From: a bacterium
GTDB taxonomy: Bacteria; Sumerlaeota; Sumerlaeia; SLMS01; JAHLLQ01
Assembly: GCA_020444065.1 (NCBI GenBank)
Contig: JAHLLQ010000005.1
Location: 1-64,000, forward strand
DNA: 64,000 nt
Direction: 5' to 3'
Part shown: piece after piece, positions 41,384 through 55,705 of the stretch
How the letters are laid out: every line of letters starts with the position of its first letter
Numbering within the stretch: the stretch's first letter is position 1
The notes under the pieces: model-generated
What the model saw: the letters and a program-made list of their open reading frames with translations, nothing else
Told to the model about the DNA's origin: nothing
Databases searched by the model: none
Translations under genes and position numbers: made by a program

Positions 41384-44300
41384 ATGAGCTGCACCCCCCG
41401 AACTCTCCTAACGAAGAACCGCCCGCCCTGGACGATTCTGCTGCTGGCTGTTGCACTGGCGGCCCCTCTGGTCGCCCAGCAGCCCCTCACCGAGCTCTAT
41501 CGCCAAGACACGAAGCTCGAGCAGCCGAACACCATCGCTGCGGGCAATCTGTTCGACACCGCTCGGCCAGAGATCGTCGCCACAGACGTTCGCGGTCACA
41601 TCAAGGTGTTCGATTCCCTGACGGGAGAGGAATTCAAAGCGCTGTCTCGCACCGTGGATGGCAATGTGGCACTGACCGGACCGGTTCTGGGAGATTTCCT
41701 GGGCAGGAATACGCTGGATATTGCCGTCGGAACAACCGATGGCCGAGTCATCTACTTCGATGGAAGTACCCTCGATGTCATTGCAGAGGCGAAGATCTCC
41801 GACAGGTCATTCGCGCTGCTTCCGACCGTGACCTTGATGCCACCGCAGGACGATCCCGCGCGCCAGCGCGAGGGGCTTGTCATGATCGACGAGGGCGGAT
41901 TGATCCACGGTGTTGTGGTGACCGACGATCGCAACGTTGAAGACTACTGGGAGCCGATCAACTCGGGCAGCCGTGGCGCGGCGCCGGCATCCGTCGGCAC
42001 CGTGCGTCAGCCGGTCGCGAACGATATCGTCTTCCCAACCAGCGACAACAATGTGATCATCATCGATCCGCGTATGGGCACGCACGAGAAGATCTACGTC
42101 CGCGAAACGCAGAGCATCATGACGACCCCGCTGCTGATCGATATCAATCAGGACGGGCACGACGACATGGTCCTGACGTTCGACAATGGGGACATCTGGG
42201 CGCTGCGCTACACCGATCGGAACAAGTTGGAGAAACTGTGGGAGTATTTCTCCAACAACCCGCCCGTGGGTGAACCCACACTCGTCGGGACAATCGGCGT
42301 TCCGCTCTCTCAGCAACTGATTTTCTATCCTGGCCGCACGCTCGAGGCGATCAACCCGGTCACCGGCTTGCGCAAGACCGAGGGAGACACAAAGAGCTTT
42401 GGCGGAATCAACACGCCGCTGGCATTGATTCCGAGCGAGATGGGCTATCCCTCGGTGGCTATGGGGATCGGCCAGGTCGTTCGCGTTGTCGATACGGAGA
42501 CCTGGTTCACGCAAGCGGCCCCTGCGTTGCGCTATCCGGAAGTCAGCGTCGGTGATCGGCTGAACGGCACACCGCTGGTCGTCACAGTCGAGGACGATCA
42601 GGGCGAGTTCACGAAGATGCTGGTCATTGGCATGACCGAGAGTGGTCGGCTCGTTGGAATTCCGACGCCGGAAACGCCGCTTGAACTGACCACCACGCCG
42701 TGGATGACGCGGGGCGGCTCATCGCGTCACAATCCCCGCTTTGACCAGGAATACTTCCAGCGCCACTTCTCCCGCGAGATCGCACTCGAGGAGCTTCACC
42801 AGAAGACGCTCGACGACCTGGACGCGGCGATGCAGGCCGGCAATTACGACGACGCACTCGTCTCGGCCGAATGGCTAGCCGAGTTCAACCCCGCCAATTC
42901 GGAATACCAGAGCAAGCACCGCGAGATCTGGATCCGCCGGAATATGATCATGCTGGCGCTGGCCGGATTGCTCGCCCTGGCGGTTGTGGGTCTCGTTGCC
43001 TACTTTGTGATTGGGTTCCTTCTCGTTCGCCGGTTGGAACGTCGCGCACGCGCGGCCGTGACAAAGGCGAAGTGGGACGAAGCGATGGTCATGTACGAGC
43101 GACTGCGCACCAAGAAACCAAAGAACCCGAAGATCATCGCCACGCTTGCACTGGTCTATACCTCGCGCAGTAACTACGAGCCGAAGACGATCGAGGTTTA
43201 TCAGAAGGCACTCGCGCAGGATCCCGACAACAAGAACCTGCTGCACGCGTATGCACGTGCGCTGCTAAAGGATCATCGCTACACCAAGGAAGCCCACGAC
43301 GTTTACGAGAAGGCCTTGAAGTCCTTCTCCGAACCGCCATTGTTGGAGTACGCTCTCGGCCTTTGCCTGAAGAACGAGGGCAAACTCGAGCAGGCCGGCA
43401 AGCGCCTCCGCGCCGCGTTGCGTGGCGGTCTTGCGAAGGATGAAGTCTACGCCGCGCTCTGCGATGTGTACCTGGAAATGGGCGTGCATTCCGCCAAGGC
43501 TCTGCCGGTCTACAAGCAGCAGTTCAATAACCGTCAGGAAGATGCCCGGTTCCTGCAGGCGTACCTGCAGTCCTGCATGGATGCGAAGCAGACAGACTCG
43601 CAGGTCGAGACGCTCTGTCACATGGTGCTCGACCTCGATCCAAAGTTTGTCCCGGCGTACTGCCATCTCGCGGCAATCTACTTGCAGAAGAACGAGATCG
43701 GTCGCGCGATCGAAGAAGTCAATCGCGCGAACGAAGTCGATCCGACCAGCGAGCAGGCGATCGCTCTGTTGGCGCATTGCTACATGTTGCAGGCGCGCTC
43801 GGACGAGCAGGCACTCGCCGCCTTCCGCAAGGCATTGAAGATGAACCCCAACGATTCCGAGATGTTGCGGATGGTCGCGGAGATCTACCAGAACGAGGGT
43901 CGTTACGACGCGGAGGCCGTGGACATCTATCATCGGTCCCACGAAGAGAATCCCGATGATGCTCCAACGCTGAAGGCATTGGCCGAGACCGCACGACTGA
44001 CGAACAATCACGACCTTGCTATTCGCTCCATCGAAGCCCTGATTCATCAGGGCCAGGGCAATCCGGAACTCAACGCGCAGTTGGCGTACGCCTACATCGC
44101 GGAGGGCATTTACGAAACACGCGCCGAACGCATCTATCGCGAGGCACTGAAGGCCAAGCCCGACGACACGAAGTTGCTCGGCGCACTGGCCCGCGTTCTG
44201 ATGAGTGAGAATCGCGATGATCCCGAGGCGATTCCGATCTACGAGCGCCACTTGCATGCGCAGCGCGACGACAAGGAAATCGGGACGCAGCTCGTTCGCG

Positions 44301-46252
44301 CGTACAATCGCAACAACCGCTACGACGACGCATTGAAGCTCGCGCAGTACTTGCTGAAGAAGGCACCGAACGACGAGGAACTGAATCGCCTTGTCGCCCT
44401 TTCCAGTCTGCACGGCAACAAGATTGAGGAAGCGGTCGCCGAGTATCAGAACATCCTAAAGCGCAACCCGAACGACAAGGAAGCGCAGGTGCACCTGGCG
44501 CTCGCGTACGCGCAGAAGGGCAAGTACGACGAGGAGGCCGGCGGTGTGATTCGCCAGGCGCTCGCCGTGCAACCGGAGAATGCCGAACTGCACCTTGCCA
44601 TGGCGCGCATCTGCGTCGAAGGCAAGGACGCGCCGAAGGCCGTGGAGCATTATCAGCACGCCCTGAAGGCGCGGCCGGGCTCAGAGGATCAGTTAATCCG
44701 ACACATCAACGCGGTGCTGGCGGCGCATCCCGAAGCGGCCCGCGTGCGCTGGTTCCTGTGCGAAGTGCTCGTCGCGTACGGTCACTTCCGCGATGCGCTG
44801 GACCAGCTCGCGACCATCTACGAATCCAATCCGAATCACGTGAAGAACATCCTGAAGGCGTTGGACAAGATCCTCGCCAAGGATCCGAAGAACGTCGCCG
44901 CGCTGGTCCAGAAGGGCCGCATGTTGATCGCGACGAACGACACGAAGAGCGCACGTGCAACGCTCGAGCAGGCCTACCAGTTGCAGCCCGGCAGCCCAGA
45001 CGTGACGCGCGTCTTGTGCGAGGTCTACGAGGCCGCGCTGAAGGCCAACGAAGACATGGAAGTGCGCTTCAAACTGGGACGGATTTACTTCTCGAGCCAG
45101 GAGTACGACAAGGCGATCGGCTGTTTCCAGAAGACCGCACAGGACTATCGCTGGGAAGCCGAATCGACTAAGATGCTCGGCAAGTGCTTCACGGCGAAGG
45201 GTATGCTCGACCTGGCGCTGCAGGAGTACAAGAAACTCGTCGTCGACGACGAGACGAAGGAACTCCTCTACGATCTGGCGCAGCGCTACGAAGCGAAGAA
45301 GGACCTCGTTGGCGCCAAGACCGTCTATCGCCAGTTGTTCGCGGCGGACATCGACTACAAAGACGTCAAGACACGCTTCGAGATGCTGTCCGGTTCGACC
45401 AGCGATCCGATGGCGTTTGAGAAAACCAGCATTGTCCAGCAGATGAGCGAGGATGCGAAGCGCCGCTACGAATTGCTCGACGAACTCGGCCGCGGGGCCA
45501 TGGGCATCGTCTATCGCGCACGCGACAAGGAACTTGAGGAAGTTGTCGCGCTGAAGATCCTGCCCGATTCGATGTCGAACAATCCGGAAGCCGTGCATCG
45601 CTTCAAAGTCGAAGCGCGTAATGCGCGCAAGCTCTCGCACCCGAACATCGTGCGTATCCACGACATCGGCGAGGAAATGGGCCGCAAGTACATCTCGATG
45701 GAGTACGTCGATGGCTCCGATCTGAAAAAGCGAATCAAGAGCGGCAAGAAGATGGAGCCGAAGGAGATTTATCACTACGCGATCCAGATCGCCGACGCGT
45801 TGGCCTATGCGCATCGCCTTGGCATCGTCCACCGCGATATCAAACCCGCGAACATCATGCTGACCACCGCGGACGAAATCAAAGTCACCGACTTCGGCAT
45901 CGCGAAGATGCTCGATTCAACCGGCGAAGGAACGATGGTCGGCGCCGTGATCGGAACGCCGCTCTACATGTCTCCGGAGCAGGTGCAGGGCATCCCCGTC
46001 GACAATCGCGCGGACATCTACTCCTACGGCGTGATGCTGTACGAGTTCGTGAACAGCAAGCCGCCCTTTATCGAAGGCGACCTGGCCTATCAGCATATGC
46101 ACCGCGATCCCGATCGCCCGGAGAACTGCTCGGACGAACTGTGGGCGATCATCGCGAAGTGTCTGGCGAAGGATAAGGACGACCGCTGGGCGAACGCCGA
46201 CGAAATCGTCGAAGCGCTCCGCGACGCGCGCAAGGCATCAAGCGCCGTGTAA
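41384..46252 (+). CDS. Transmembrane Ser/Thr protein kinase with N-terminal propeller and TPR array
   Basis: A 1622-aa protein. A hydrophobic segment (about 18-31) is a signal peptide or signal anchor; about 35-440 is a PQQ/VCBS-like beta-propeller (GNLFDTARPEIVATDVRG, INQDGHDDMVLTFDNGD) predicted outside the cytoplasm. Residues 520-548 form a transmembrane helix (LALAGLLALAVVGLVAYFVI). About 550-1340 is a long cytoplasmic TPR array (around twenty units). About 1361-1615 is a Hanks-type kinase: GRGAMGIVY, Lys1391 in VVALKILPD, HRDIKPANIM with Asp1485, DFG in VTDFGIAKML, and GTPLYMSPEQV. The kinase is therefore C-terminal, opposite to the usual bacterial order of kinase-TM-sensor. No strong ribosome site is seen at the ATG. 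Two lipoprotein genes follow on the same strand. Confidence 0.92.
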   Translation: MSCTPRTLLTKNRPPWTILLLAVALAAPLVAQQPLTELYRQDTKLEQPNTIAAGNLFDTARPEIVATDVRGHIKVFDSLTGEEFKALSRTVDGNVALTGPVLGDFLGRNTLDIAVGTTDGRVIYFDGSTLDVIAEAKISDRSFALLPTVTLMPPQDDPARQREGLVMIDEGGLIHGVVVTDDRNVEDYWEPINSGSRGAAPASVGTVRQPVANDIVFPTSDNNVIIIDPRMGTHEKIYVRETQSIMTTPLLIDINQDGHDDMVLTFDNGDIWALRYTDRNKLEKLWEYFSNNPPVGEPTLVGTIGVPLSQQLIFYPGRTLEAINPVTGLRKTEGDTKSFGGINTPLALIPSEMGYPSVAMGIGQVVRVVDTETWFTQAAPALRYPEVSVGDRLNGTPLVVTVEDDQGEFTKMLVIGMTESGRLVGIPTPETPLELTTTPWMTRGGSSRHNPRFDQEYFQRHFSREIALEELHQKTLDDLDAAMQAGNYDDALVSAEWLAEFNPANSEYQSKHREIWIRRNMIMLALAGLLALAVVGLVAYFVIGFLLVRRLERRARAAVTKAKWDEAMVMYERLRTKKPKNPKIIATLALVYTSRSNYEPKTIEVYQKALAQDPDNKNLLHAYARALLKDHRYTKEAHDVYEKALKSFSEPPLLEYALGLCLKNEGKLEQAGKRLRAALRGGLAKDEVYAALCDVYLEMGVHSAKALPVYKQQFNNRQEDARFLQAYLQSCMDAKQTDSQVETLCHMVLDLDPKFVPAYCHLAAIYLQKNEIGRAIEEVNRANEVDPTSEQAIALLAHCYMLQARSDEQALAAFRKALKMNPNDSEMLRMVAEIYQNEGRYDAEAVDIYHRSHEENPDDAPTLKALAETARLTNNHDLAIRSIEALIHQGQGNPELNAQLAYAYIAEGIYETRAERIYREALKAKPDDTKLLGALARVLMSENRDDPEAIPIYERHLHAQRDDKEIGTQLVRAYNRNNRYDDALKLAQYLLKKAPNDEELNRLVALSSLHGNKIEEAVAEYQNILKRNPNDKEAQVHLALAYAQKGKYDEEAGGVIRQALAVQPENAELHLAMARICVEGKDAPKAVEHYQHALKARPGSEDQLIRHINAVLAAHPEAARVRWFLCEVLVAYGHFRDALDQLATIYESNPNHVKNILKALDKILAKDPKNVAALVQKGRMLIATNDTKSARATLEQAYQLQPGSPDVTRVLCEVYEAALKANEDMEVRFKLGRIYFSSQEYDKAIGCFQKTAQDYRWEAESTKMLGKCFTAKGMLDLALQEYKKLVVDDETKELLYDLAQRYEAKKDLVGAKTVYRQLFAADIDYKDVKTRFEMLSGSTSDPMAFEKTSIVQQMSEDAKRRYELLDELGRGAMGIVYRARDKELEEVVALKILPDSMSNNPEAVHRFKVEARNARKLSHPNIVRIHDIGEEMGRKYISMEYVDGSDLKKRIKSGKKMEPKEIYHYAIQIADALAYAHRLGIVHRDIKPANIMLTTADEIKVTDFGIAKMLDSTGEGTMVGAVIGTPLYMSPEQVQGIPVDNRADIYSYGVMLYEFVNSKPPFIEGDLAYQHMHRDPDRPENCSDELWAIIAKCLAKDKDDRWANADEIVEALRDARKASSAV

Positions 46253-46293
46253 TCGTGCAGGGAACGGACATCGAGGGAGGGCTGCAGGACCCC

Positions 46294-47280
46294 GTGAACA
46301 CTCCACACTCGCTCCTCGCCCTTCTGCTCGCCGCCACAATCAGTCTCTTCCTCACCGGCTGCTTCGGCGCAACGCCGTCGCAGCCGTTGTTATTGAATGA
46401 TCCTCCGTGGCAAAGCGAGGCGGCGGGAGACTACGTTCAACTTTGCTATCAGGCCTATTCCAGAAGTGAGCCGCAGATCGTTCTTGAGCGGATCAACACG
46501 AACGAAATCGTTTGGGTGAACTACCTTCAGTACGCAGGTCGGAGGACTTTCGTCCGTAGGATGCCATGGTACACTCCACTGAAGTCGCATTCCTCGGAGT
46601 TCGCACCGAATCCAGCTTCAGGCAAGGCTCTCGTCGAACTGCAGCCTCCTTTTGGCGCGTATGTTCCTTTTGGTTCCAACAAGGGGAAGACCATCTTCGA
46701 TCTCTCGACCCTGATTGGTTCGAATAGGCAGTCCTACCGATTTCTGATTTCTTGGGCTCGGTTGTCCCCCGTTCCTCGCTCCAACGTTTCGGAGAGGGAC
46801 TTCTGGTGGAAGGCGACGTATGTCACCTGGGGACTTCCGCGAGATATTCTCGATGCACCCATTACGCTCATGCGACGGGATGGCTTCGATGCTTTTGGCG
46901 GCCCCCAGAGACTTTGTGGCGACGACACAATGGTGACTTTCGTCGCCTTCGACATCGCGCTTACGATCGCTGTTCCTATCGTCATTGCGGCCACTGTCAC
47001 ACCCCTCTATGTCGGGATTCCTCTGGCGGCTCTTGGGTTTGCCACAGCGACGTGGGCAGCCATCTTCGTAACTTCCTATGTCAAGCAACTCTCCTCAATC
47101 TTGTTCCAACGTATCATCAATCCTCTCCAAACCGCCGCATTGCGTGGCGGAGTGGATTCGGAAGATTACTTCCCGAACTGGAAGTTCGGAGTGCATGACC
47201 GCAGCGGCCTGGCGATCATCGAAGAGGTCGGTCAGGCCGAGGAGTATTGGGTCATTACCAACATCCAGCGCATCCCATGA
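46294..47280 (+). CDS. Lipoprotein with C-terminal membrane segments, paralogue 1
   Basis: Chosen start GTG 46294, 4 nt after CAGGA; the frame is open from 46255. The product of about 328 aa has a lipoprotein signal peptide with lipobox SLFLTGC (Cys23). The mature N-terminus reads FGATPSQPLLLNDPPWQ. About 185-205 has WGLPRDILDAPITLMRRDGF; about 215-275 has two hydrophobic helices (VIAATVTPLYVGIPLAALG); then NPLQTAALRGGVDSEDYFPN and WKFGV. The same blocks occur in the next gene, so they are tandem paralogues. The family is not recognised. It follows the kinase gene by 41 bp. Confidence 0.8.
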   Translation: MNTPHSLLALLLAATISLFLTGCFGATPSQPLLLNDPPWQSEAAGDYVQLCYQAYSRSEPQIVLERINTNEIVWVNYLQYAGRRTFVRRMPWYTPLKSHSSEFAPNPASGKALVELQPPFGAYVPFGSNKGKTIFDLSTLIGSNRQSYRFLISWARLSPVPRSNVSERDFWWKATYVTWGLPRDILDAPITLMRRDGFDAFGGPQRLCGDDTMVTFVAFDIALTIAVPIVIAATVTPLYVGIPLAALGFATATWAAIFVTSYVKQLSSILFQRIINPLQTAALRGGVDSEDYFPNWKFGVHDRSGLAIIEEVGQAEEYWVITNIQRIP

Positions 47281-47293
47281 ATCGATTGGCAGA

Positions 47294-48295
47294 ATGCAAT
47301 CTGTGAAGAGCCCCTCACGCTACACCGCCGCCCTGTTGATTCTCCTCGCGAGTCTCTTCCTCACCGGCTGCTTCGGCCCAACGCCGTCGCGGCCGTTGTT
47401 ATTGCACAACCCGCCCTGGCAGCAAATCGACGCCGGGACGGAGACCATTCTGCACTACCAGACTTACTCTGCCGATCGTCCGGAAATCATGCTCGAGCCC
47501 ATCGGGCCCAGGAAGGAGGCGGGGCGCTTCTCTGCCACTCAATTCCTCGGCGCGGGGAGATCGACTTCACACGAAGACACCGTCCGATATGCAAGACTCG
47601 GCAATCGGATGGCTCTGCCTTTCTCGGACGATTACGGCCCGCCTTCCGCCGCATTTCACACGCTGCTGCCGCCTGAACGATCGAACATTCGCCGTGGAGA
47701 TTTGTGGCAGGGAAACACGATTCTGATTCTCACGGACAACTGGGTACGATCGGAGACATCGCAGATCAGATTCCTCGTCTCCTGGGTCGGCATCCCGACG
47801 GATCGCGCAGCGGCGCAGGAAGGCTTGCCGGCAATCACGTATCCACTGTGGGGCTTGCCGCGAGACTTGCTTGATGCGCCCATCACGTTCTTGCGTCGCT
47901 GCGGATTCGATCGCCTTCTCGACCCCATCCCGGTTGAAAATCCACGCGTCGCCTACTGGGTCAGCCTCGGCGCCGTCATTGGAATCGCCGCGGCCGGGCC
48001 CGCGGCGTTCCTGTTCGCCGTCACGCCTTGGTATATGTTTATGGGAACAACCTTGATGGTGATCTTCCCGAGCAGCGTCGCCGTCGGAGCGGTCGCAGCC
48101 TTCATCACGAGGACCGCGCTCGAGTTCGGCTTCCAGAGTTTCATCAATCCGCTCCAGGTCGGCGCATTGCGCGGCGGCGTGGACTCGGAGGACTACTTCC
48201 CCAACTGGAAGTTTGGCGTTCGGCGCGAACGCACCCTCCCTTCCGGCGCGGGCGAAATCCGCTGGGTCGTCACGGATATTCGCCGACTGCCATAG
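47294..48295 (+). CDS. Lipoprotein with C-terminal membrane segments, paralogue 2
   Basis: ATG 47294 lies 13 bp after the preceding stop; upstream in-frame sequence is a shadow of that gene. The 333-aa product has lipobox SLFLTGC (Cys26) and mature start FGPTPSRPLLLHNPPWQ, almost the same as paralogue 1. Conserved blocks: WGLPRDLLDAPITFLRRCGF, hydrophobic helices about 225-290, then NPLQVGALRGGVDSEDYFPN and WKFGV. The middle (about 60-170) has diverged much more between copies than the ends. Function unknown. Confidence 0.8.
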   Translation: MQSVKSPSRYTAALLILLASLFLTGCFGPTPSRPLLLHNPPWQQIDAGTETILHYQTYSADRPEIMLEPIGPRKEAGRFSATQFLGAGRSTSHEDTVRYARLGNRMALPFSDDYGPPSAAFHTLLPPERSNIRRGDLWQGNTILILTDNWVRSETSQIRFLVSWVGIPTDRAAAQEGLPAITYPLWGLPRDLLDAPITFLRRCGFDRLLDPIPVENPRVAYWVSLGAVIGIAAAGPAAFLFAVTPWYMFMGTTLMVIFPSSVAVGAVAAFITRTALEFGFQSFINPLQVGALRGGVDSEDYFPNWKFGVRRERTLPSGAGEIRWVVTDIRRLP

Positions 48296-48422
48296 CGTCT
48301 CCTGCCTGTTTGCCATTCCTCACTTGTGTTTTCTTACGCTTCTGCAGTAATGACTGAGTAGGTGTTTCTCGTGGGAAAATTCTCACCACGAAGGCACGAA
48401 GAGCACGAAGAGGATGAGGATT

Positions 48423-48851
48423 ATGGAGGACGTTCCATTGGCAAATGATGAGGCCCGCGGGACAGGGTGGTGGATTCTGGCCGCTATTGCCGGTGTGGCA
48501 TTCGTCGCTCTGATTCTCGCGCCGGGCTTTCTCAAAGCTCGCGAGTCATCGGCACGCAATTCTTGCCAGGGAAACATGGAAAGAATCGACTCGGCAGTGC
48601 AGCAGTACATGTTGGAACTCGGGATAGAAAGCAGGGCGATGCTTGTTGCAATGATCGGCACGGAGCAGAAGGACTGGGAGAAGCACTTGGTGGGGCAGAA
48701 GAAGATCATTCGCTACTCGCCCAAGTGCCCGACGGGCAGTGAGTATGTTCTCAACCCTTCCCCAGATGATCCGCCGGTGTCTTGCCGATTCTGGCTGGAG
48801 CATCCGCGGGAGACGCGGCATCTGTACGTGTGGCCGCGCACGGGGTCTTAG
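48423..48851 (+). CDS. Pilin-like small membrane protein, array copy 1
   Basis: About 142 aa from ATG 48423 (ATG 48414 is also possible). A short acidic N-terminus, then a membrane helix (GWWILAAIAGVAFVALILAP) running into GFLKARESSARNSCQGNM and RIDSAVQQYMLELGI. That helix end, Cys and QQY pattern is what type IV pilins/pseudopilins show after their hydrophobic start, and the head YSPKCPTGSEYVLNP with PPVSC fits a pilin C-terminal Cys pair. No prepilin cleavage motif (Gly-Phe-Thr-x-x-Glu) is present. It carries GTEQKDW like its neighbours but its C-terminus differs from theirs. Membrane anchored, head outside, by inference. Confidence 0.75.
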   Translation: MEDVPLANDEARGTGWWILAAIAGVAFVALILAPGFLKARESSARNSCQGNMERIDSAVQQYMLELGIESRAMLVAMIGTEQKDWEKHLVGQKKIIRYSPKCPTGSEYVLNPSPDDPPVSCRFWLEHPRETRHLYVWPRTGS

Positions 48852-48860
48852 GAATTCGCA

Positions 48861-48930
48861 GCCCGCCTTCGCGAAACGCTTCGGCACGCCGGACGAAGGC
48901 ACGAAGAGCACGAAGGGGATGAGGATTATG
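48861..48930 (+). repeat. Spacer repeat shared between array genes
   Basis: The spacer contains CTTCGCGAAACGCTTCGGCACGCC then GGACGAAGGCACGAAG and GGATGAGGA up to the next start. Related spacers lie at 50436-50498, 51022-51090, 52148-52222 and 54063-54130; the CACGAAGGCACGAAGAGCA part also precedes array copy 1 (48387-48420). The repeat shows that gene plus leader were duplicated as a unit. Confidence 0.75.
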
Positions 48931-49395
48931 GAGGACGACGAGAAACCCGAGAAGCAGAAGGCCGTTTCAGTACGACGGAAGCGGATGATGAGAGGAGTTT
49001 GGATCGCTTGCGCCGTGCTGGTCTTGGCTCTGGGCATCGCCCTGATCTTACGAGAGCTTCTCCCTGCGCGCGAGACGCCGCACAGGTCTTCTTGCCAATA
49101 CAATCAAGCCGTGGTCGATTCGGCCGTTCAGCAGTACATCCTCGAATTCGGCCTGAAGGACCAGGCGGAGTTCGTGGCTCTCTTTGGAACCGAGCAGAAG
49201 GATTGGTCGCACGTTCTTGTGGGGCCGGACAAGTACATTCGTTACCCACCCAAATGCCCCACGCACAAATCTTCGTGGATGTTCTGGAAACCTCTGAACG
49301 ATTACTCGATTGCTCCGACAAACGCTGGCTTCGAGGGGGGAGGACCAGCAAAATGCAATGTCTGCGATCTTCCTTATCCGCAGGCGGACCCGTAA
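48928..49395 (+). CDS. Pilin-like small membrane protein, array copy 2
   Basis: About 155 aa from ATG 48928 (or 48919). N-terminus MEDDEKPEKQKAVSVRRKR is the charged leader typical of the array, then a membrane helix (GVWIACAVLVLALGIALIL), LLPARETPHRSSCQYNQ and DSAVQQYILEFGL. The head has QAEFVALFGTEQKDWSHVL, YIRYPPKCP, HKSSWMFWKPLNDYSIAPT and a C-terminal KCNVCDLPYPQ with extra cysteines. It shares its head cassette (HKSS-MFW-PLNDYSIAPT) with copy 5 rather than with copies 3 and 4. Function unknown; pilin-like fold inferred. Confidence 0.75.
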   Translation: MEDDEKPEKQKAVSVRRKRMMRGVWIACAVLVLALGIALILRELLPARETPHRSSCQYNQAVVDSAVQQYILEFGLKDQAEFVALFGTEQKDWSHVLVGPDKYIRYPPKCPTHKSSWMFWKPLNDYSIAPTNAGFEGGGPAKCNVCDLPYPQADP

Positions 49396-49436
49396 AGGAC
49401 GAATGGGAAGAGGAAATCGGAGGGCCGGAGGAGAGC

Positions 49437-49916
49437 ATGAGCAATCAACAGACAGATGCGCCAGGCCGCCGGTTATTGCCGGAGTGGTTGCGACATCCCT
49501 GGGGATGTTGGGTTCTGCTGATTCTGTACGTCGTTGGAACCATTGCGTGGATGATTCCTGGGGCCTTGAAAGCTAGAGATACCCCCGCTCGGTACTCCTG
49601 TCAGGACGTCATGACAAGAATCGACTCGGCGGTGCAGCAGTATATCGAGGAATTCGAACTCGAGGGGCGGGCGCAGTTTGTGGCGATGTTCGGTACGGAG
49701 CAGAAGGATTGGTCCCCGGTGCTGGTGGGACCTGATTACGGCCTCCGTCAACCTCCCAGGTGCACGAGTCACGCGGCGCCGCCATTCTGGGAGTTCTGGC
49801 AATCAAGAGAAGTGCTGAACGACTACTCGATTGCAGACAAGGCCGATGCGGAATTCCCGGTGATGTGTAATATCTACCCGGAGGACCATCTTTATCCGGT
49901 GCCGCGCGACCCGTAG
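49437..49916 (+). CDS. Pilin-like small membrane protein, array copy 3
   Basis: About 159 aa from ATG 49437, directly after GGAGGAGAGC. The N-terminal leader here (MSNQQTDAPGRRLLPEWLRH) differs from the KPEKP type. A membrane helix (GCWVLLILYVVGTIAWMIPG) leads into ALKARDTPARYSCQDVMTRI and DSAVQQYIEEFEL, the pilin-like helix, then QFVAMFGTEQKDWSPVLVG and a head with PPRCTSHAAPPFWEFW and EVLNDYSIADK. The last part reads FPVMCNIYPEDHLYPVP. It lacks the long spacer repeat upstream (41-bp gap). Confidence 0.75.
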   Translation: MSNQQTDAPGRRLLPEWLRHPWGCWVLLILYVVGTIAWMIPGALKARDTPARYSCQDVMTRIDSAVQQYIEEFELEGRAQFVAMFGTEQKDWSPVLVGPDYGLRQPPRCTSHAAPPFWEFWQSREVLNDYSIADKADAEFPVMCNIYPEDHLYPVPRDP

Positions 49917-49933
49917 GAATGCCAAAAGGGGGT

Positions 49934-50239
49934 TGAGGACATGATGCACGACGAGAAACCGGAAAAGCCGGCCGCAGTCTCGGAAGAATATTCGACGCGT
50001 CTGAAGCAGGCATTGAAGGTGTTCGCAATTCCTATTGTATTGGCCATGTTAATCCTGTCTGGAAATCCGTTCAGGAAAGCGCCTGAAACTTCAGCACGAA
50101 ACTCCTGTCCCGAGAAACAGATGAGGATCGCTTCAGCCGTGCAGCAGTATATCGCGGACTACAAGCTGACGGGCCAGGCGCAATTTGTCGCGTTGTTTGG
50201 AACGGAACAGAAGGACTGGTCCCCCGTTCTTGTGGGGCC
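49934..50239 (+). repeat. Near-identical 306-bp duplication, copy A
   Basis: This segment equals 50492-50797 except for one base (C at 50225, G at 50783). It covers the last leader bases and codons 1-100 of array copies 4 and 5. Identity ends abruptly at both sides. Offset 558 bp. Confidence 0.95.
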
Positions 50240-50432
50240 CGACAAATACATTCGCTATCCAGTCAAGTGCCCGAGCCACAAGGACCCGCCATCCTGGCAA
50301 TTCTGGCGATCAGGAGAAGTGCTGAACGATTACTCGATCTCTCCGACGGACGCTGGCTTCAAGGGAGGAGCACTGGTGAGATGCAGTGTCGAGCCGGAGC
50401 GGCATTTGGATCCGAGTGCGCCGAGACCTTAG
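49941..50432 (+). CDS. Pilin-like small membrane protein, array copy 4
   Basis: 163 aa. Leader MMHDEKPEKPAAVSEEYSTR, then a shorter membrane helix (VFAIPIVLAMLILSG), then NPFRKAPETSARNSCPEKQM and IASAVQQYIADYKL. The head has QFVALFGTEQKDWSPVLVGP, YIRYPVKCPSHKDPPSWQFW, EVLNDYSISPTDAGF and RCSVEPERHLDP. The first 100 codons are nearly identical at DNA level to copy 5 while the head resembles copy 3. Here FLKARE is altered to FRKAPE, a Pro in the helix. Confidence 0.75.
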   Translation: MMHDEKPEKPAAVSEEYSTRLKQALKVFAIPIVLAMLILSGNPFRKAPETSARNSCPEKQMRIASAVQQYIADYKLTGQAQFVALFGTEQKDWSPVLVGPDKYIRYPVKCPSHKDPPSWQFWRSGEVLNDYSISPTDAGFKGGALVRCSVEPERHLDPSAPRP

Positions 50433-50491
50433 CAATGCACCATCCGCCTTTGCGAAACGCTTCGGCACGCAGGATGAAGGCACGAAGGGGA

Positions 50492-50797
50492 TGAGGACAT
50501 GATGCACGACGAGAAACCGGAAAAGCCGGCCGCAGTCTCGGAAGAATATTCGACGCGTCTGAAGCAGGCATTGAAGGTGTTCGCAATTCCTATTGTATTG
50601 GCCATGTTAATCCTGTCTGGAAATCCGTTCAGGAAAGCGCCTGAAACTTCAGCACGAAACTCCTGTCCCGAGAAACAGATGAGGATCGCTTCAGCCGTGC
50701 AGCAGTATATCGCGGACTACAAGCTGACGGGCCAGGCGCAATTTGTCGCGTTGTTTGGAACGGAACAGAAGGACTGGTCCCCGGTTCTTGTGGGGCC
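50492..50797 (+). repeat. Near-identical 306-bp duplication, copy B
   Basis: Second copy of the 49934-50239 segment, one mismatch. The sequences before and after differ, so the homology is limited to the 5' part of the two genes. Confidence 0.95.
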
Positions 50798-51020
50798 TAC
50801 GAAGCTTCTTCGCTATCCCCCCAAGTGCCCCGCCCACAAGTCTTCATTGATGTTCTGGCGACCTCTGAACGACTACTCGATCGCTCCAACCGATGCCGGT
50901 TTCAAGGGGGGAGTTCCGGTGAGATGTAATGTCGGCAAAGACCGGCATCCGTACCCTGAGGCACCCCCGCCTTATCCAACACCCATTCCGGCTGCGATGT
51001 CCGGTGATGTTGGGGAGTAG
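50499..51020 (+). CDS. Pilin-like small membrane protein, array copy 5
   Basis: 173 aa. Residues 1-100 equal copy 4 (leader MMHDEKPEKP, helix, PETSARNSCPEKQM, GTEQKDWSPVLVGP). The head then changes to LRYPPKCPAHKSSLMFWRP and LNDYSIAPTDAGF, the cassette of copy 2, with VRCNVGKDRHPYPEAPPPYP and a short Pro-rich tail. It is thus a chimera of a copy-4 front and a copy-2-like back, or copy 4 was converted by this gene. Confidence 0.75.
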   Translation: MMHDEKPEKPAAVSEEYSTRLKQALKVFAIPIVLAMLILSGNPFRKAPETSARNSCPEKQMRIASAVQQYIADYKLTGQAQFVALFGTEQKDWSPVLVGPTKLLRYPPKCPAHKSSLMFWRPLNDYSIAPTDAGFKGGVPVRCNVGKDRHPYPEAPPPYPTPIPAAMSGDVGE

Positions 51021-51090
51021 GAATGCCCCACTCGCCGTCGCGAAATGCTTCGGCACACAGGAATCAAGAAGCGTGAGAGAGGAGACAGTT

Positions 51091-51555
51091 GTGAGCACTG
51101 CAAAGCCCAAGAAGCCGCCCGCTGTCTCTCGGCGGTGGTTGATCAGCGTTGGCCGAATCACAGCCCTCATCGTGCTGGTGGCGTTGCCTCTTGGCGGGTA
51201 CATGGTCTATCGATACGAAACGCGACCTTTCCACGATACGAATCACGTCAGTCGATGCCAACGTGCCATGGAACGCATCGAATACGGAGTGGAGGACTTT
51301 CAGTACAGAAATGGTCTGCCCGACCGTGCGTCGGCGCTGGCAGTCCTGGGGCGCGAGCAGCCTCTGTGGGAACCGATCCTCGCAAATTCCGATCTCCTTT
51401 ACTATACGCCTCGTTGCCCCAGCATGGGGCGCCGATGGTCGGGCGATCCGGCACGGAATTACACACTGAATGTCACCGGACCACGGGTGGTCTGCAACGC
51501 GCGCTTCTGTGGCTGTACACTGTACTGGAACGTCCCGCCGGGCGGCGAAGACTAA
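51091..51555 (+). CDS. Divergent pilin-like small membrane protein, array copy 6
   Basis: 154 aa from GTG 51091, 5 nt after AGGAGA. It is the most diverged intact member. Leader VSTAKPKKPPAVSRRW, membrane helix (ITALIVLVALPLGGYMVY), then RYETRPFHDTNHVSRCQRAM and ERIEYGVEDFQYRNGL. GTEQKDW is changed to GREQPLWEPIL. The head keeps LYYTPRCPSMGRRW, NYTLNVTGPRVVC and a Cys-rich ARFCGCTLYW. The order (helix, Cys, aromatic-CP, Tyr-Thr-Leu-Asn, Cys) is close to textbook pseudopilin heads. Confidence 0.7.
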   Translation: MSTAKPKKPPAVSRRWLISVGRITALIVLVALPLGGYMVYRYETRPFHDTNHVSRCQRAMERIEYGVEDFQYRNGLPDRASALAVLGREQPLWEPILANSDLLYYTPRCPSMGRRWSGDPARNYTLNVTGPRVVCNARFCGCTLYWNVPPGGED

Positions 51556-51607
51556 CGCCGCCGCTCCGCGCACGCCAAGACGTGAGGGACAGGAAGAGGA
51601 CGAGGAG

Positions 51608-52147
51608 ATGAAGCACGACGAAAAACCGGAAAAGCCCGAAGCCGTCTCGGAGGAGTGGAAGCGAAAGCTGAAGCGAGCTTGGATCTTATGCGGTCTGCTG
51701 GTCTTGGTGCTGGCTGTGGGGCTGGGCATCTACTTCGGTTGGCCGCTGCTCTTCAAGGCGCGCGAGACATCGGCCAGGAATCCTTGTCAGGAAAACCAGA
51801 TGAAGATCGATTCGGCCGTTCAGCAGTACATCCTCGAGTATGGGCTGAATGATCAGGCAGAGTTTGTTGCTTTGTTCGGAACCGAGCAGAAGGACTGGTC
51901 GCCTGTCTTGATCGGCGAGAATCGGTTCATCCGTTACGAGCCAAAGTGCCCGGCTCATGAGTCTCCGGCATTTTGGAAGTTCTGGCGATGGGGAGAACCA
52001 ATCAATGATTACTCGATTGCCAATAATTCTATGGCTGCTTGGCCGGTAAGGTGCAATGTTGGCATGGAGCGGCACCCATATCCCGGAGGAGGCGATGATG
52101 ATGTCGATCCGACACCGACACCTACTCCCGCGGCAGATGGATCATAG
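51608..52147 (+). CDS. Pilin-like small membrane protein, array copy 7
   Basis: 179 aa from ATG 51608 after GAGGACGAGGAG. Leader MKHDEKPEKPEAVSEEWKRK, membrane helix (ILCGLLVLVLAVGLGIYFGW), LLFKARETSARNPCQENQMK, IDSAVQQYILEYGL, QAEFVALFGTEQKDWSPVLI. Head with YEPKCPAHESPAFWKFW, INDYSIANN, VRCNVGMERHPYPGG and an Asp/Pro/Thr tail (DDDVDPTPTPTPAADGS). It best shows the family consensus and most resembles copy 9 in its front half. Confidence 0.78.
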   Translation: MKHDEKPEKPEAVSEEWKRKLKRAWILCGLLVLVLAVGLGIYFGWPLLFKARETSARNPCQENQMKIDSAVQQYILEYGLNDQAEFVALFGTEQKDWSPVLIGENRFIRYEPKCPAHESPAFWKFWRWGEPINDYSIANNSMAAWPVRCNVGMERHPYPGGGDDDVDPTPTPTPAADGS

Positions 52148-52222
52148 CAATGCACCTCGCGCCTTCGCGAAACACTTCGGCGCGCCGGACGAAGGCATGA
52201 AGGAGACGAAGGGGACGAGGAA

Positions 52223-52405
52223 ATGAAGCACGACGAGAAACCGGAAAAGCCGGAAGTTCTTTCGGAGCGCTGGCTTGTGATGCTGAGGCGCGTTCTCATC
52301 CTCGGCGTTGGTGTCGCGGTGTTGCTTGGCATCCTAACCTCGATTGGATTCCGATGTTTACGAATTCGACGTCTTCGAGTCGCTTTTCATGAACAAAGGG
52401 CTTAA
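52223..52405 (+). pseudogene. Broken pilin-like gene, 5' part (array copy 8)
   Basis: 60 codons: leader MKHDEKPEKPEVLSERWLVM and a membrane helix (VLILGVGVAVLLGILTSIGF), then the frame leaves the family pattern and stops at 52405. The pilin-like core is missing. A family-like 3' remnant lies at 53462-53539, and between them is the 321-aa gene at 52495. Another frame after about 52346 stays open to a TAA at 52492 but does not clearly match the family. Confidence 0.7.
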
Positions 52406-52494
52406 TCACTGTGCAACCAATACAGAGAGAGGAATCCCCCAGATCGCCTGGCACCGCGAGCTGCCGAATCCTCCCGCACTCGGAGATGACTAAG

Positions 52495-53460
52495 ATGAAG
52501 AATATACTGCGCAGAATATCAATCTGCCTCTTCTGGTTGCTCTGCAGCATTCCCACACGCGCTAATCCAGATGACGTACTGAGAGACTGTCTCCTAACAG
52601 CCGATGAAGCAGCAATCACGACGCTCTCATTGACTGCATCTCAAGTGCTTGCAATGGCGAGCATTGCTAGAGTGTCAGCGAATCCGACTACTGACGTAGG
52701 CATTCCGGAAGAGGAGCTTGCAGAGAACTTGGCTGAGTTCGAGTCAGCTCTTGATTCTCTGGCGCTTGGAAGTAACGAGGATCAACTCACCACGGCTACA
52801 ATGCTTGAGGGCGAGAGCTGGATGGCGAAAATTCTACTGGTTGCCTGGGATCGAAGCGAACGCCCTGAACACTATGAGGAAGTTGTTAACTACCTACAGG
52901 CCGATCCGATAGCATTGGGAGGAAGAGTTCTCCCCACATGTCGTTTAGCCGCAATACCGCGAACCGACGAATGGCGCCTCCCTGTCGAGTACGCTCTTCT
53001 TCGTCCTTGGCAACCGGGAGAAGGAGTGGCTCGCGCGAGCAGATTCTATGATCGACACAGATTCGATCTCCCAGAGGCTTCTCTGGTCAGTTACTCCCCC
53101 AGCTCAGCCTGGGATTCGCGGGCAGTTCCCTGCCTTATTCTCTACGCGAAAAACGCAATGTTGGAGTACTCCGATGGCAGCTTGGAGGGCAGTTCTACTG
53201 ATGAGAATCTATTCGCGGTACTTGTGCTCCTCGGTGCCATGCCCAGTGAGCTGAATCTGCGGATGCAGGCGATGCTTGTCACCTGCAGCGAAAGAGCAAT
53301 CTCGTCCTCATTTGCTGACGAGTTTGCAGGATTACTTGTGGGCACAACAAATGAGACTAGTGATTGGGACGAGTTGTATGGCGCAGGCGAGTCTGTCGTG
53401 GATTCAGCGAATCTGGAAGGATTTGGCATCCTGAAGTCTCTTCGTCAGGGCACGGACTAG
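52495..53460 (+). CDS. Secreted protein of unknown function lying inside the broken array copy
   Basis: 321 aa from ATG 52495 (GGAG 9 nt upstream); ATG 52486 is an alternative. A signal peptide is visible (ISICLFWLLCSIPTRAN). The mature protein is acidic and helical, without recognised motif; segments include EEELAENLAEFESALDSLAL, GESWMAKILLVAWDR and CLILYAKNAMLEYSDGS. It is unrelated to the flanking array genes. Two 60-base lines of it count 50-52% G+C, a little lower than neighbours, and codons such as AGA and ATA are more frequent. It looks like an insertion, but no transposase or terminal repeats are visible. Confidence 0.7.
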   Translation: MKNILRRISICLFWLLCSIPTRANPDDVLRDCLLTADEAAITTLSLTASQVLAMASIARVSANPTTDVGIPEEELAENLAEFESALDSLALGSNEDQLTTATMLEGESWMAKILLVAWDRSERPEHYEEVVNYLQADPIALGGRVLPTCRLAAIPRTDEWRLPVEYALLRPWQPGEGVARASRFYDRHRFDLPEASLVSYSPSSAWDSRAVPCLILYAKNAMLEYSDGSLEGSSTDENLFAVLVLLGAMPSELNLRMQAMLVTCSERAISSSFADEFAGLLVGTTNETSDWDELYGAGESVVDSANLEGFGILKSLRQGTD

Positions 53461-53461
53461 G

Positions 53462-53539
53462 GAGGGCTTCGAAGACGATGGGCCCGTGAGGTGCAATATC
53501 GCGCCTGAACAACATCCGTATCCGCAGGCGGGCATCTGA
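53462..53539 (+). pseudogene. 3' remnant of a pilin-like array gene
   Basis: Directly after the stop of the inserted gene, 25 codons read EGFEDDGPVRCNIAPEQHPY then PQAGI and a stop. This matches the C-terminal end of other copies (AGFKGGVPVRCNVGKDRHPY, then P). It has no start and no front part. It is best explained as the 3' end of the gene whose 5' part is at 52223-52405. Confidence 0.75.
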
Positions 53540-53561
53540 AGGAGACAAAGAGGACGAGGAT

Positions 53562-54062
53562 ATGAAGCACGACGAGAAACCGGAAAAACCCGAAGCCGTC
53601 TCGGAGGAGTGGAAGCGGAAGCTGAGAAGGTCATGGACCTTGAGCAGTTGGCTAGCCTTAGTGCTGGCTGTTGGGCTGGGCGTCTACTTCGGATTGCCGC
53701 ATTTCTTCAGAGCGCGTGAGACATCGGCCAAGAATTGGTGCCAGGAGAATCAAACCAAAATCGATTCAGCAGTGCAGCAGTACATATTGGAGTACAACCT
53801 CGCCGATCAGGAGGAATTCGTGGAGCTGTTTGGAACCGAGCTGGAAGATTGGGCGCCAGTCTTGGTCGGACCGGATCTTTATATTCGCTTCACACCGAGG
53901 TGCCCAAACTGGAAACCCGATCCATGGTGGAAGCTCTGGTGGAAGAAGAAGCGGCCCCCCAACGACTACTCGATTGCCCCTACAAATGAGGGCTTCGTCG
54001 AGAACGGGGCGCCTGTCAGGTGCAACCTGTGCGACCATCCGTATCCGCAGGCGATTCATTAG
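53562..54062 (+). CDS. Pilin-like small membrane protein, array copy 9 (last)
   Basis: 166 aa. Leader MKHDEKPEKPEAVSEEWKRK, membrane helix (LALVLAVGLGVYFGLPHF), FRARETSAKNWCQENQTK, IDSAVQQYILEYNL, then QEEFVELFGTELEDWAPVLV (GTEQKDW changed to GTELEDW) and YIRFTPRCPNWKPDPWWKLW. An unusual basic-aromatic stretch WWKKKRPPNDYSIAPT follows, and the end reads VRCNLCDHPYPQAIH with an extra Cys. It closes the array before a terminator. Confidence 0.75.
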   Translation: MKHDEKPEKPEAVSEEWKRKLRRSWTLSSWLALVLAVGLGVYFGLPHFFRARETSAKNWCQENQTKIDSAVQQYILEYNLADQEEFVELFGTELEDWAPVLVGPDLYIRFTPRCPNWKPDPWWKLWWKKKRPPNDYSIAPTNEGFVENGAPVRCNLCDHPYPQAIH

Positions 54063-54143: not shown

Positions 54144-54170
54144 GAGGACCGGCGTGGGCCGGTCCTCTTT
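54144..54170 (+). terminator. Rho-independent terminator closing the array
   Basis: A perfect 10-bp stem GAGGACCGGC (54144-54153) with GCCGGTCCTC (54158-54167), loop GTGG, followed by TTT. It also lies 30 bp past the DprE1-like gene on the other strand, so it may serve both. Confidence 0.8.
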
Positions 54171-54199: not shown

Positions 54200-55705
54200 T
54201 CAGCGATCGAAGTCTTTGCCGAAGATGCGTCGCGACAGGTCGGTCTGCAGGATGTTTTCGGGATCGCATTCGTTCTTCAGCGCGATAAATTTCTCGAGGT
54301 TGCCCTTTGGCAGGAAACGCGCCGGGGTGCCGGGGCGCATGGTGGCGTCTTTCGCGAAGTAGAATCGCCCGCCGTTGTCGAGCACGACGCGATCCATTTC
54401 GTGCGTCAGCTTCCACAGGCGCTGGCGATTGCTGCGTGTGACGCGGAAGTCCATCGCAAGCGAGTAGCCGTCCACGGCGTGGCGAATCAGGAACGGGTCC
54501 GTGTCCGGGATGTGTTTCTTGAACACGCCGAGGTACGACGGCATGCCGGCGGCCTTTGACATGCGGATCAACGTTTCGTGCGTGCGCACGGCGTTTTCTT
54601 TCGGCACGAAGCTCTGGTACTGGATCAGCCCGCCGGGCTTGTAGGACCACTGCCAGTTCGGCACGTAGTCGAGCAGGAATGCAAACGCCGCATGGGACTG
54701 GTAGTAGCGATGTCCGCGCGGCTGCAGAATGCCGGAGTAGAATTTCGCGAAGTTGATCGCGCGCATTCCCAGGTCGTTCACGAACGGCGTGAGGAACAGG
54801 TACATCAATGACTTCGGGAAGACGCCCATGATATGCTCGGGCAATTCCTGCGCAGCGACCTGCAGCGACTCGCGCAGGCGCCGAGGATCTTCTTCCACCG
54901 TGTAGCCGGCCTGGTGAACGATGCCGCGGCCGAGGCTTCTTCCGCCGGGAAAGCAGTCGACCCAGCCGACGAGGTAGTCCGACTCGTCGACGCGGTCTTC
55001 AATCTCGTCGACCATCTCCTGCAGGCTGTACGTGTTGAATGCTTCGACCCACACGTTGCCGGAGCGAACCTTCTTCATCTGCATCACGAAACGCGTGAAG
55101 CACCCCAGCATGCCGAAGCCGCCGATGGCCGCGAAGAAGAGCTCGCTGTTCTGCTCTCGGCTGCATGTTTTGTGTTCGCCGTTCGGCAGCAGGATGTCGA
55201 ACTCGATGATGTGACGGCCCCAGGTGCCGGCCTTGAAATTGTTTTTTCCGTGGATGTTCATTCCGGCGGCGCCGGCGATGGTCGGGTACATCGTGCCGGA
55301 AACGATCGGCGGCCACCATCCGTCGGGGATGATGTGCTTCCACAGGTCGCCGATGGCCAGTCCCGGCTCCATTTCCATGCGGCCGGTCTCCGGATTCCAA
55401 TCGATGATCCGGTTCATTTTGCTGATATCGAGAACGATGCTGTCTTCGCCGATCGAAGCGTCGCCGTAGCTGCGCCCCGCTCCGCGCAAGGCGATCGGTT
55501 TGCCCGTGCGGCGAGCCAGCGCGTACACGGCCTCGATCTCCTCCACGGCGCGCGGGAAATGCACCCACGAGAGGGACTCTACGGCCATGCCCCAGCCTTC
55601 GACTTTCGCCAAATGCCGCGGGCTTAAACCTTGAGGCTTAACTGCCACGTCCTGCCGTCCTTTCGCCGAATCCTTCCCGGCCTCCAATTGCGCTGCTGCC
55701 GTCAT
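54200..55705 (-). CDS. DprE1-like FAD oxidoreductase
   Basis: The 501-aa product matches decaprenylphosphoryl-beta-D-ribose 2'-oxidase: FAD motif PIALRGAGRSYGDASIGEDS, GMNIHGKNNFKAGTWGRHI, and a C-terminal RFYFAKDATM with Lys452 in the place of the active-site Lys of mycobacterial DprE1. With DprE2 it epimerises polyprenyl-phospho-ribose to arabinose in actinobacteria. In mycobacterial DprE1 the covalent benzothiazinone target Cys387 lies in a WNVCVDF-like stretch; here the aligned stretch is YSLAMDF, Ala417. The gene starts 4 bp after the SDR gene stop. An alternative is another sugar-alcohol or lactone oxidase of the VAO group, but the partner gene supports the DprE1-type call. Confidence 0.85.
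   Translation of the reverse strand: MTAAAQLEAGKDSAKGRQDVAVKPQGLSPRHLAKVEGWGMAVESLSWVHFPRAVEEIEAVYALARRTGKPIALRGAGRSYGDASIGEDSIVLDISKMNRIIDWNPETGRMEMEPGLAIGDLWKHIIPDGWWPPIVSGTMYPTIAGAAGMNIHGKNNFKAGTWGRHIIEFDILLPNGEHKTCSREQNSELFFAAIGGFGMLGCFTRFVMQMKKVRSGNVWVEAFNTYSLQEMVDEIEDRVDESDYLVGWVDCFPGGRSLGRGIVHQAGYTVEEDPRRLRESLQVAAQELPEHIMGVFPKSLMYLFLTPFVNDLGMRAINFAKFYSGILQPRGHRYYQSHAAFAFLLDYVPNWQWSYKPGGLIQYQSFVPKENAVRTHETLIRMSKAAGMPSYLGVFKKHIPDTDPFLIRHAVDGYSLAMDFRVTRSNRQRLWKLTHEMDRVVLDNGGRFYFAKDATMRPGTPARFLPKGNLEKFIALKNECDPENILQTDLSRRIFGKDFDR

Follow-up and report, generated by a model that had tools for sequence, protein, structure and literature searches.

A tandem array of pilin-derived proteins with a drifting membrane helix in a Sumerlaeota genome

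The feature by which type IV pilins are normally identified is the N-terminal helix, the best-conserved part of the protein because it forms the core of the filament. Known prepilin leaders span 6-26 residues, and for processing Gly-1 is critical and Glu5 is dispensable (PMC4471445). Glu5 mutants form no homopolymers and are able to co-assemble with wild-type subunits (PMC4471445); in known tip complexes, the capping subunit is one that lacks Glu5 (PMC10191384). According to a genome survey of the Sumerlaeota, every one of its metagenome-assembled genomes has twitching systems that depend on type IV pili, and the survey does not use the word 'pilin' (PMC8092238). Here we analyse a 64,000-bp stretch of DNA from a bacterium of this phylum (assembly GCA_020444065.1, contig JAHLLQ010000005.1, positions 1 to 64,000), hereafter the window, in which eight intact genes and one disrupted copy of a pilin-like gene form a tandem array on the forward strand (48423-54062; copies are numbered as listed below). 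The genome is a draft assembly of 5.2 Mb in 14 contigs and the sole member of its genus among the genomes searched.

The array proteins resemble canonical prepilins and the major pseudopilins of the type II secretion system (T2SS) (PF07963; PilA, PulG/GspG) in their homologous head with three conserved Cys, in the order of predicted elements and in the position of the hydrophobic helix. Unlike these, they have neither Glu5 nor an N_methyl match, their Gly-1 is degenerate or absent, the helix is unconserved, the N-terminus is longer and charged, most copies have a Trp-rich loop, and the genes lie in tandem away from pilus genes. With minor (pseudo)pilins of the GspK/PilK type they share a pilin origin, a hydrophobic N-terminal helix and the lack of Glu5 (PMC10191384); however, GspK and PilK keep the cleavage site and join the tip complex, whereas the array keeps the site only in part and comprises many copies with small heads of the canonical-prepilin family. 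Immediately past the helix there is weak similarity to DUF1559 (PF07596), a family of pilin-like proteins in Planctomycetes (copy 1, E 0.29; canonical prepilin described below, E 0.0011), but the array head is much shorter and the score of 11.6 bits lies below the family cut-off of 23.3. We consider it rather probable that the array encodes proteins that derive from type IV pilins, form a family specific to this lineage, have left the filament and are anchored in the inner membrane. Its members are homologues of pilins but are filed here as a pilin-derived variant and not as pilins, because two traits that define the class, Glu5 and the N_methyl match, are lacking and the presumed Gly-1 is found in 7 of 13 intact copies.

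Conservation of head and helix

A profile built from the eight intact window copies recovers these same copies from the genome at E-values of 1e-46 to 1e-77. It also finds a second array of four genes (d1-d4, C3:542827-545122) and a lone gene (e1, C3:296707), which brings the intact array-type copies to 13 genome-wide, as well as two adjoining canonical prepilins (C2:793188 and C2:793785). The prepilin at C2:793188 (E=3.6e-38) has a textbook class III leader (MIRKTKG/FTLVEIMIVVAIIGILIAIAVPGFLKARETSRRNSCQENQTKIDSAVQQYILEYN..., beginning MIRKTKG/FTLVEIMIVV...) that N_methyl scores, and it sits between the genes for a platform protein (T2SSF) and a motor ATPase (T2SSE). Compared with the heads of the window copies, its own head shows 42-65% identity, copy 6 being the exception (24%), and the C-terminal end of the copy 1 helix is still recognisably pilin-derived (APGFLKARESSARN vs canonical VPGFLKARETSRRN). 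Paired prepilins of this kind recur in several other Sumerlaeota. Judged by sequence, the array heads evidently descend from a common ancestor with the canonical prepilin of the same genome. A preliminary description of the window had called these heads pilin-like, and this is borne out by a canonical prepilin with the same head and a matching predicted topology.

Conservation within the array is inverted relative to that of canonical pilins. The 11 canonical homologues are 86% identical in the helix (+1 to +24) and 46% in the head, whereas the 13 array-type proteins are 21% identical in the helix and 48% in the head. An ungapped check anchored on the first Cys gave helix and head identities of 80% and 49% for the canonical set vs 16% and 44% for the array. 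Even where the heads are unrelated, helix identity among the canonical prepilins of the genome is 34%; 21 prepilin motif matches in the genome were compared, one of which is probably a spurious frame. This inversion is the strongest piece of evidence obtained. Since helix identity has collapsed at a similar head identity, the comparison indicates that the array helix is no longer constrained by filament packing. The copies and the features between them are as follows, with a slash marking the end of the presumed leader; position -1 was placed by eye.

48423-48851, forward: copy 1, 142 residues; short head without the Trp-rich loop; presumed -1 Gly (GTG/WWILA)
48928-49395, forward: copy 2, 155 residues; presumed -1 Gly (MRG/VWIAC)
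49437-49916, forward: copy 3, 159 residues; presumed -1 Gly (PWG/CWVLL)
49941-50432, forward: copy 4, 163 residues; no suitable -1 residue; near-identical to copy 5 over the first ~290 bp
50499-51020, forward: copy 5, 173 residues; N-terminal half like copy 4, C-terminal half unlike it
51091-51555, forward: copy 6, 154 residues; GTG start; divergent head
51608-52147, forward: copy 7, 179 residues; presumed -1 Ala (KRA/WILCG); AlphaFold model made
52223-52405, forward: copy 8, N-terminal part of the disrupted copy
52486-53460, forward: unrelated open reading frame (ORF), exported-looking, 324 residues, between both copy 8 remnants
53462-53539, forward: copy 8, C-terminal remnant (EGFEDDGPVRCNIAPEQHPYPQAGI)
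53562-54062, forward: copy 9, 166 residues; presumed -1 Ser (RRS/WTLSS); closest to the canonical prepilin (65% head identity)
54144-54167, no strand: terminator-like 10-bp palindrome between copy 9 and the convergent gene

Identity across the array proteins is 63-65% in the core, 42% in the Trp-rich loop and 39% in the tail. The heads appear to be under purifying selection; ratios of nonsynonymous to synonymous substitution rates (dN/dS) are mostly 0.1-0.4, values that are rough because the synonymous sites are near saturation. Such ratios argue against an array of duplicated pilin fragments that expanded without function and is now decaying, as does the survival of eight of the nine window copies and of the outside copies as intact genes despite the near-saturated synonymous sites. 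Decay would be consistent with the disrupted copy, the divergent copy 6 and the restriction of the family to one genome among those searched, but we regard it as quite improbable.

A set of many variable heads that are near-homologous to one expressed prepilin also recalls the silent head cassettes used for antigenic variation, as in Neisseria pilS, and copies 4 and 5 resemble a product of conversion or partial duplication. Unlike pilS cassettes, which are incomplete genes sharing DNA tracts with an expressed pilin, the array copies are full-length and have start codons and sequences resembling ribosome-binding sites; at the DNA level they match the canonical gene exactly over no more than 15-17 bp. 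With such short exact matches and near-saturated synonymous sites, nothing points to recent exchange with the canonical gene. On account of this DNA divergence the cassette idea was rejected, and we think it highly improbable.

N-terminus, fold and anchoring

Each array protein of the window consists of a charged N-terminal segment (about 15-26 residues), one hydrophobic helix and a head of about 90-130 residues; columns invariant across the eight window copies include three Cys, one Trp and one Tyr. Glu5 is absent from all array copies, and the canonical homologues all have it (Asp in one). Even when the array genes are read from stop to stop they contain no FTLxE motif, so that start correction recovers no class III leader. 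The preliminary description was correct in reporting no Glu5, but its statement that no cleavage site is visible holds only in part: Gly stands at the charged/hydrophobic junction, the presumed -1 position, in 7 of the 13 intact copies (1, 2, 3, d2, d3, d4 and e1, that is, in three of the eight in the window). The position is occupied by Ala in copy 7 and Ser in copy 9, and nothing suitable is found in copies 4, 5, 6 and d1. The same description held that the leader had been replaced by a charged segment, which proved inaccurate: the leader is lengthened (to about 15-28 residues), charged and degenerate, the end of the helix is pilin-derived, and about half of the copies keep the presumed Gly-1.

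AlphaFold2 predicts for copy 7 a long helix (residues 15-77) followed by a beta pair, with a predicted local distance difference test (pLDDT) score of 86, as the pilin-like reading needs. The model of the canonical prepilin (pLDDT 81) has the same order of long helix, two short helices and beta pair, to which copy 7 adds a short helix within the Trp-rich loop; the input alignments of the two predictions overlap, and the models are not independent. In Foldseek searches of the PDB, the canonical model gave weak matches to PulG, PilA4 and PilJ and the copy 7 model gave no match, a null result of low information because the canonical control is itself weak. Given the dependence between the models and these Foldseek results, homology by sequence is stronger evidence for a pilin origin than the fold. 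A sequence search of the PDB with the array profile reached only E 0.08-0.3 (EmrA, then PilE1), and pilins were found with an alignment that included the canonical relatives.

The array proteins have no significant match in Pfam or NCBIfam, and N_methyl (PF07963) does not match the eight window copies up to E=1. Within one alignment (A4), N_methyl matches 10 members and none of the array rows. A family anchored in this way appears to be undescribed, as had been proposed, and a literature search for pilin derivatives that do not assemble, or for DUF4190 combined with a pilin, found nothing directly relevant.

If the array proteins are pilin derivatives that left the filament, the single hydrophobic helix would insert each of them N-in/C-out. 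They would stay in the inner membrane, with their Cys-containing heads in the periplasm, because without Glu5 and a conserved helix they would be unable to form homopolymers. The copies, transcribed together, would present a series of related heads that are conserved in the core and vary more in the Trp-rich loop and in the tail; at a guess, these heads might act on the canonical pilus as modulators, or have ligands or partners in the envelope to which they bind. Tandem duplication would have enlarged the array, accompanied by partial gene conversion or by duplication of part of a gene, as in copies 4 and 5. The fixed type II membrane proteins of the preliminary description are likely rather than certain, because Gly-1 persists in part and prepilin peptidase needs Gly-1, not Glu5 (PMC4471445).

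Several observations weigh against permanent anchoring outside the filament. Some array copies may still be processed by prepilin peptidase, because 7 of the 13 keep the presumed -1 Gly, and Glu5 mutants are known to enter assemblies of wild-type subunits (PMC4471445). Copies 1 and 3 have a weak positive-inside signal, the predicted topology rests on hydropathy and pilin precedent, and the copy 7 model lacks a PDB match, as noted above. The main rival explanation is accordingly that of a Glu5-less minor pilin: the array proteins, or those with Gly or Ala at -1, would be peptidase substrates with long leaders that enter the canonical filament as minority subunits or cap it in the manner of GspK. 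This is consistent with the presumed -1 Gly of seven copies and the Ala of one more, Ala being found at -1 in 5 of the 21 prepilin motif matches of the genome, and with the presence of a prepilin peptidase gene (only one, both matches falling in one 514-residue frame). Most leaders of the Gly/Ala(-1) copies fit the known length range, Glu5 is dispensable for processing (PMC4471445), and capping subunits without Glu5 are known (PMC10191384). However, copies 4, 5, 6 and d1 are intact yet have no suitable -1 residue, and helix identity is down to 16-21%, a degree of drift that packing in a filament should not allow. The array is also far from the pilus genes, and a dozen cap subunits would be unusual. 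We regard the minor-pilin explanation as unlikely, and continue to favour pilin-derived proteins that left the filament.

Gene organisation and neighbourhood

The eight intact genes and one broken copy that were first reported in tandem are confirmed by the gene coordinates, by the profile and by DNA repeats that stay in register between copies; the pattern is far beyond chance. Intergenic gaps measure 24-76 bp as far as copy 8, and because they are short the copies are likely co-transcribed as one operon; no match to a sigma-70-like promoter was found on the forward strand. Copy 6 is strongly divergent (head identity 24-31%). Copies 4 and 5 differ after their almost identical start, a sign of gene conversion or partial duplication.

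Directly before the array lie two paralogous genes for putative lipoproteins (46255-47280 and 47294-48295), which have the motifs LTGCFG...LLL..PPW and INPLQ..ALRGGVDSEDYFPNWKFG and no Pfam match. They are preceded by a gene for a 1622-residue protein (41384-46252) with a signal-like N-terminus, a helix, many tetratricopeptide repeats and a C-terminal Ser/Thr kinase domain. Downstream of the array is a convergent gene for a flavin adenine dinucleotide (FAD) oxidase (54200-55705). The ORF that sits between the copy 8 remnants belongs to a family found at four places in the genome, with 30-37% identity to the other members and no match across the 39 other Sumerlaeota genomes searched.

A dispersed repeat, CACCACGAAGGCACGAAGRRCACGAAG, occurs just upstream of copies 1 and 2 (48388-48422 and 48893-48927) and also upstream of three of the C3 copies. 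It is found alone elsewhere too, in part as an inverted pair, and one site precedes what we take to be a GxxExxY-like gene. Prepilins are numerous in this genome: there are 49 prepilin matches to N_methyl (PF07963), and varied prepilins are clustered in at least two places (C2:852-861 kb and C2:257 kb).

Distribution and pilin heads on other anchors

Among the 40 Sumerlaeota genomes searched, with G000 counted in, no other carries the array type, defined by its charged segment and drifting helix, and scans of genome contigs and viral contigs with the array profile found no array-type relatives elsewhere. A phage origin was rejected, as there are no relatives among the viral contigs. A single origin of the array anchor is not resolved by the tree of the heads, in which a single change is seen in 30% of bootstrap trees.

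Heads of the same family, likewise without a class III leader, are re-anchored in other ways in the Sumerlaeota (L034, L054, L071, L080, L104, L108 and others); unlike the array, these are single genes with different N-terminal parts. One head is carried on a DUF4190-like segment (L071:4760-5308), and two follow a Pro-rich tail and one helix (L034:1399-1809, from the same genome at C2:223183, and L054). In several Sumerlaeota families a pilin-type helix and head form the C-terminal end of large proteins (L080, L082, L084, L104, L108, L112, L119 and L120) of about 520-730 residues (one of ~286), the remainder of which has no Pfam match in the two that were tested. It is possible, although we put it forward tentatively, that the pilin head serves in Sumerlaeota as an all-purpose periplasmic module that has been reused again and again: in the tandem array, on DUF4190-like and Pro-rich segments and at the ends of large proteins. 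If true, pilins would repeatedly have left filaments to become a distinct class of envelope proteins that is so far undescribed.

In the array the usual pilin rule is inverted, the head being kept as the helix drifts, and this gives a clear-cut natural example of pilins that leave the filament. Annotation based on the leader misses pilin-derived proteins of this kind, and the array makes it testable which surfaces of the head function independently of polymerisation.

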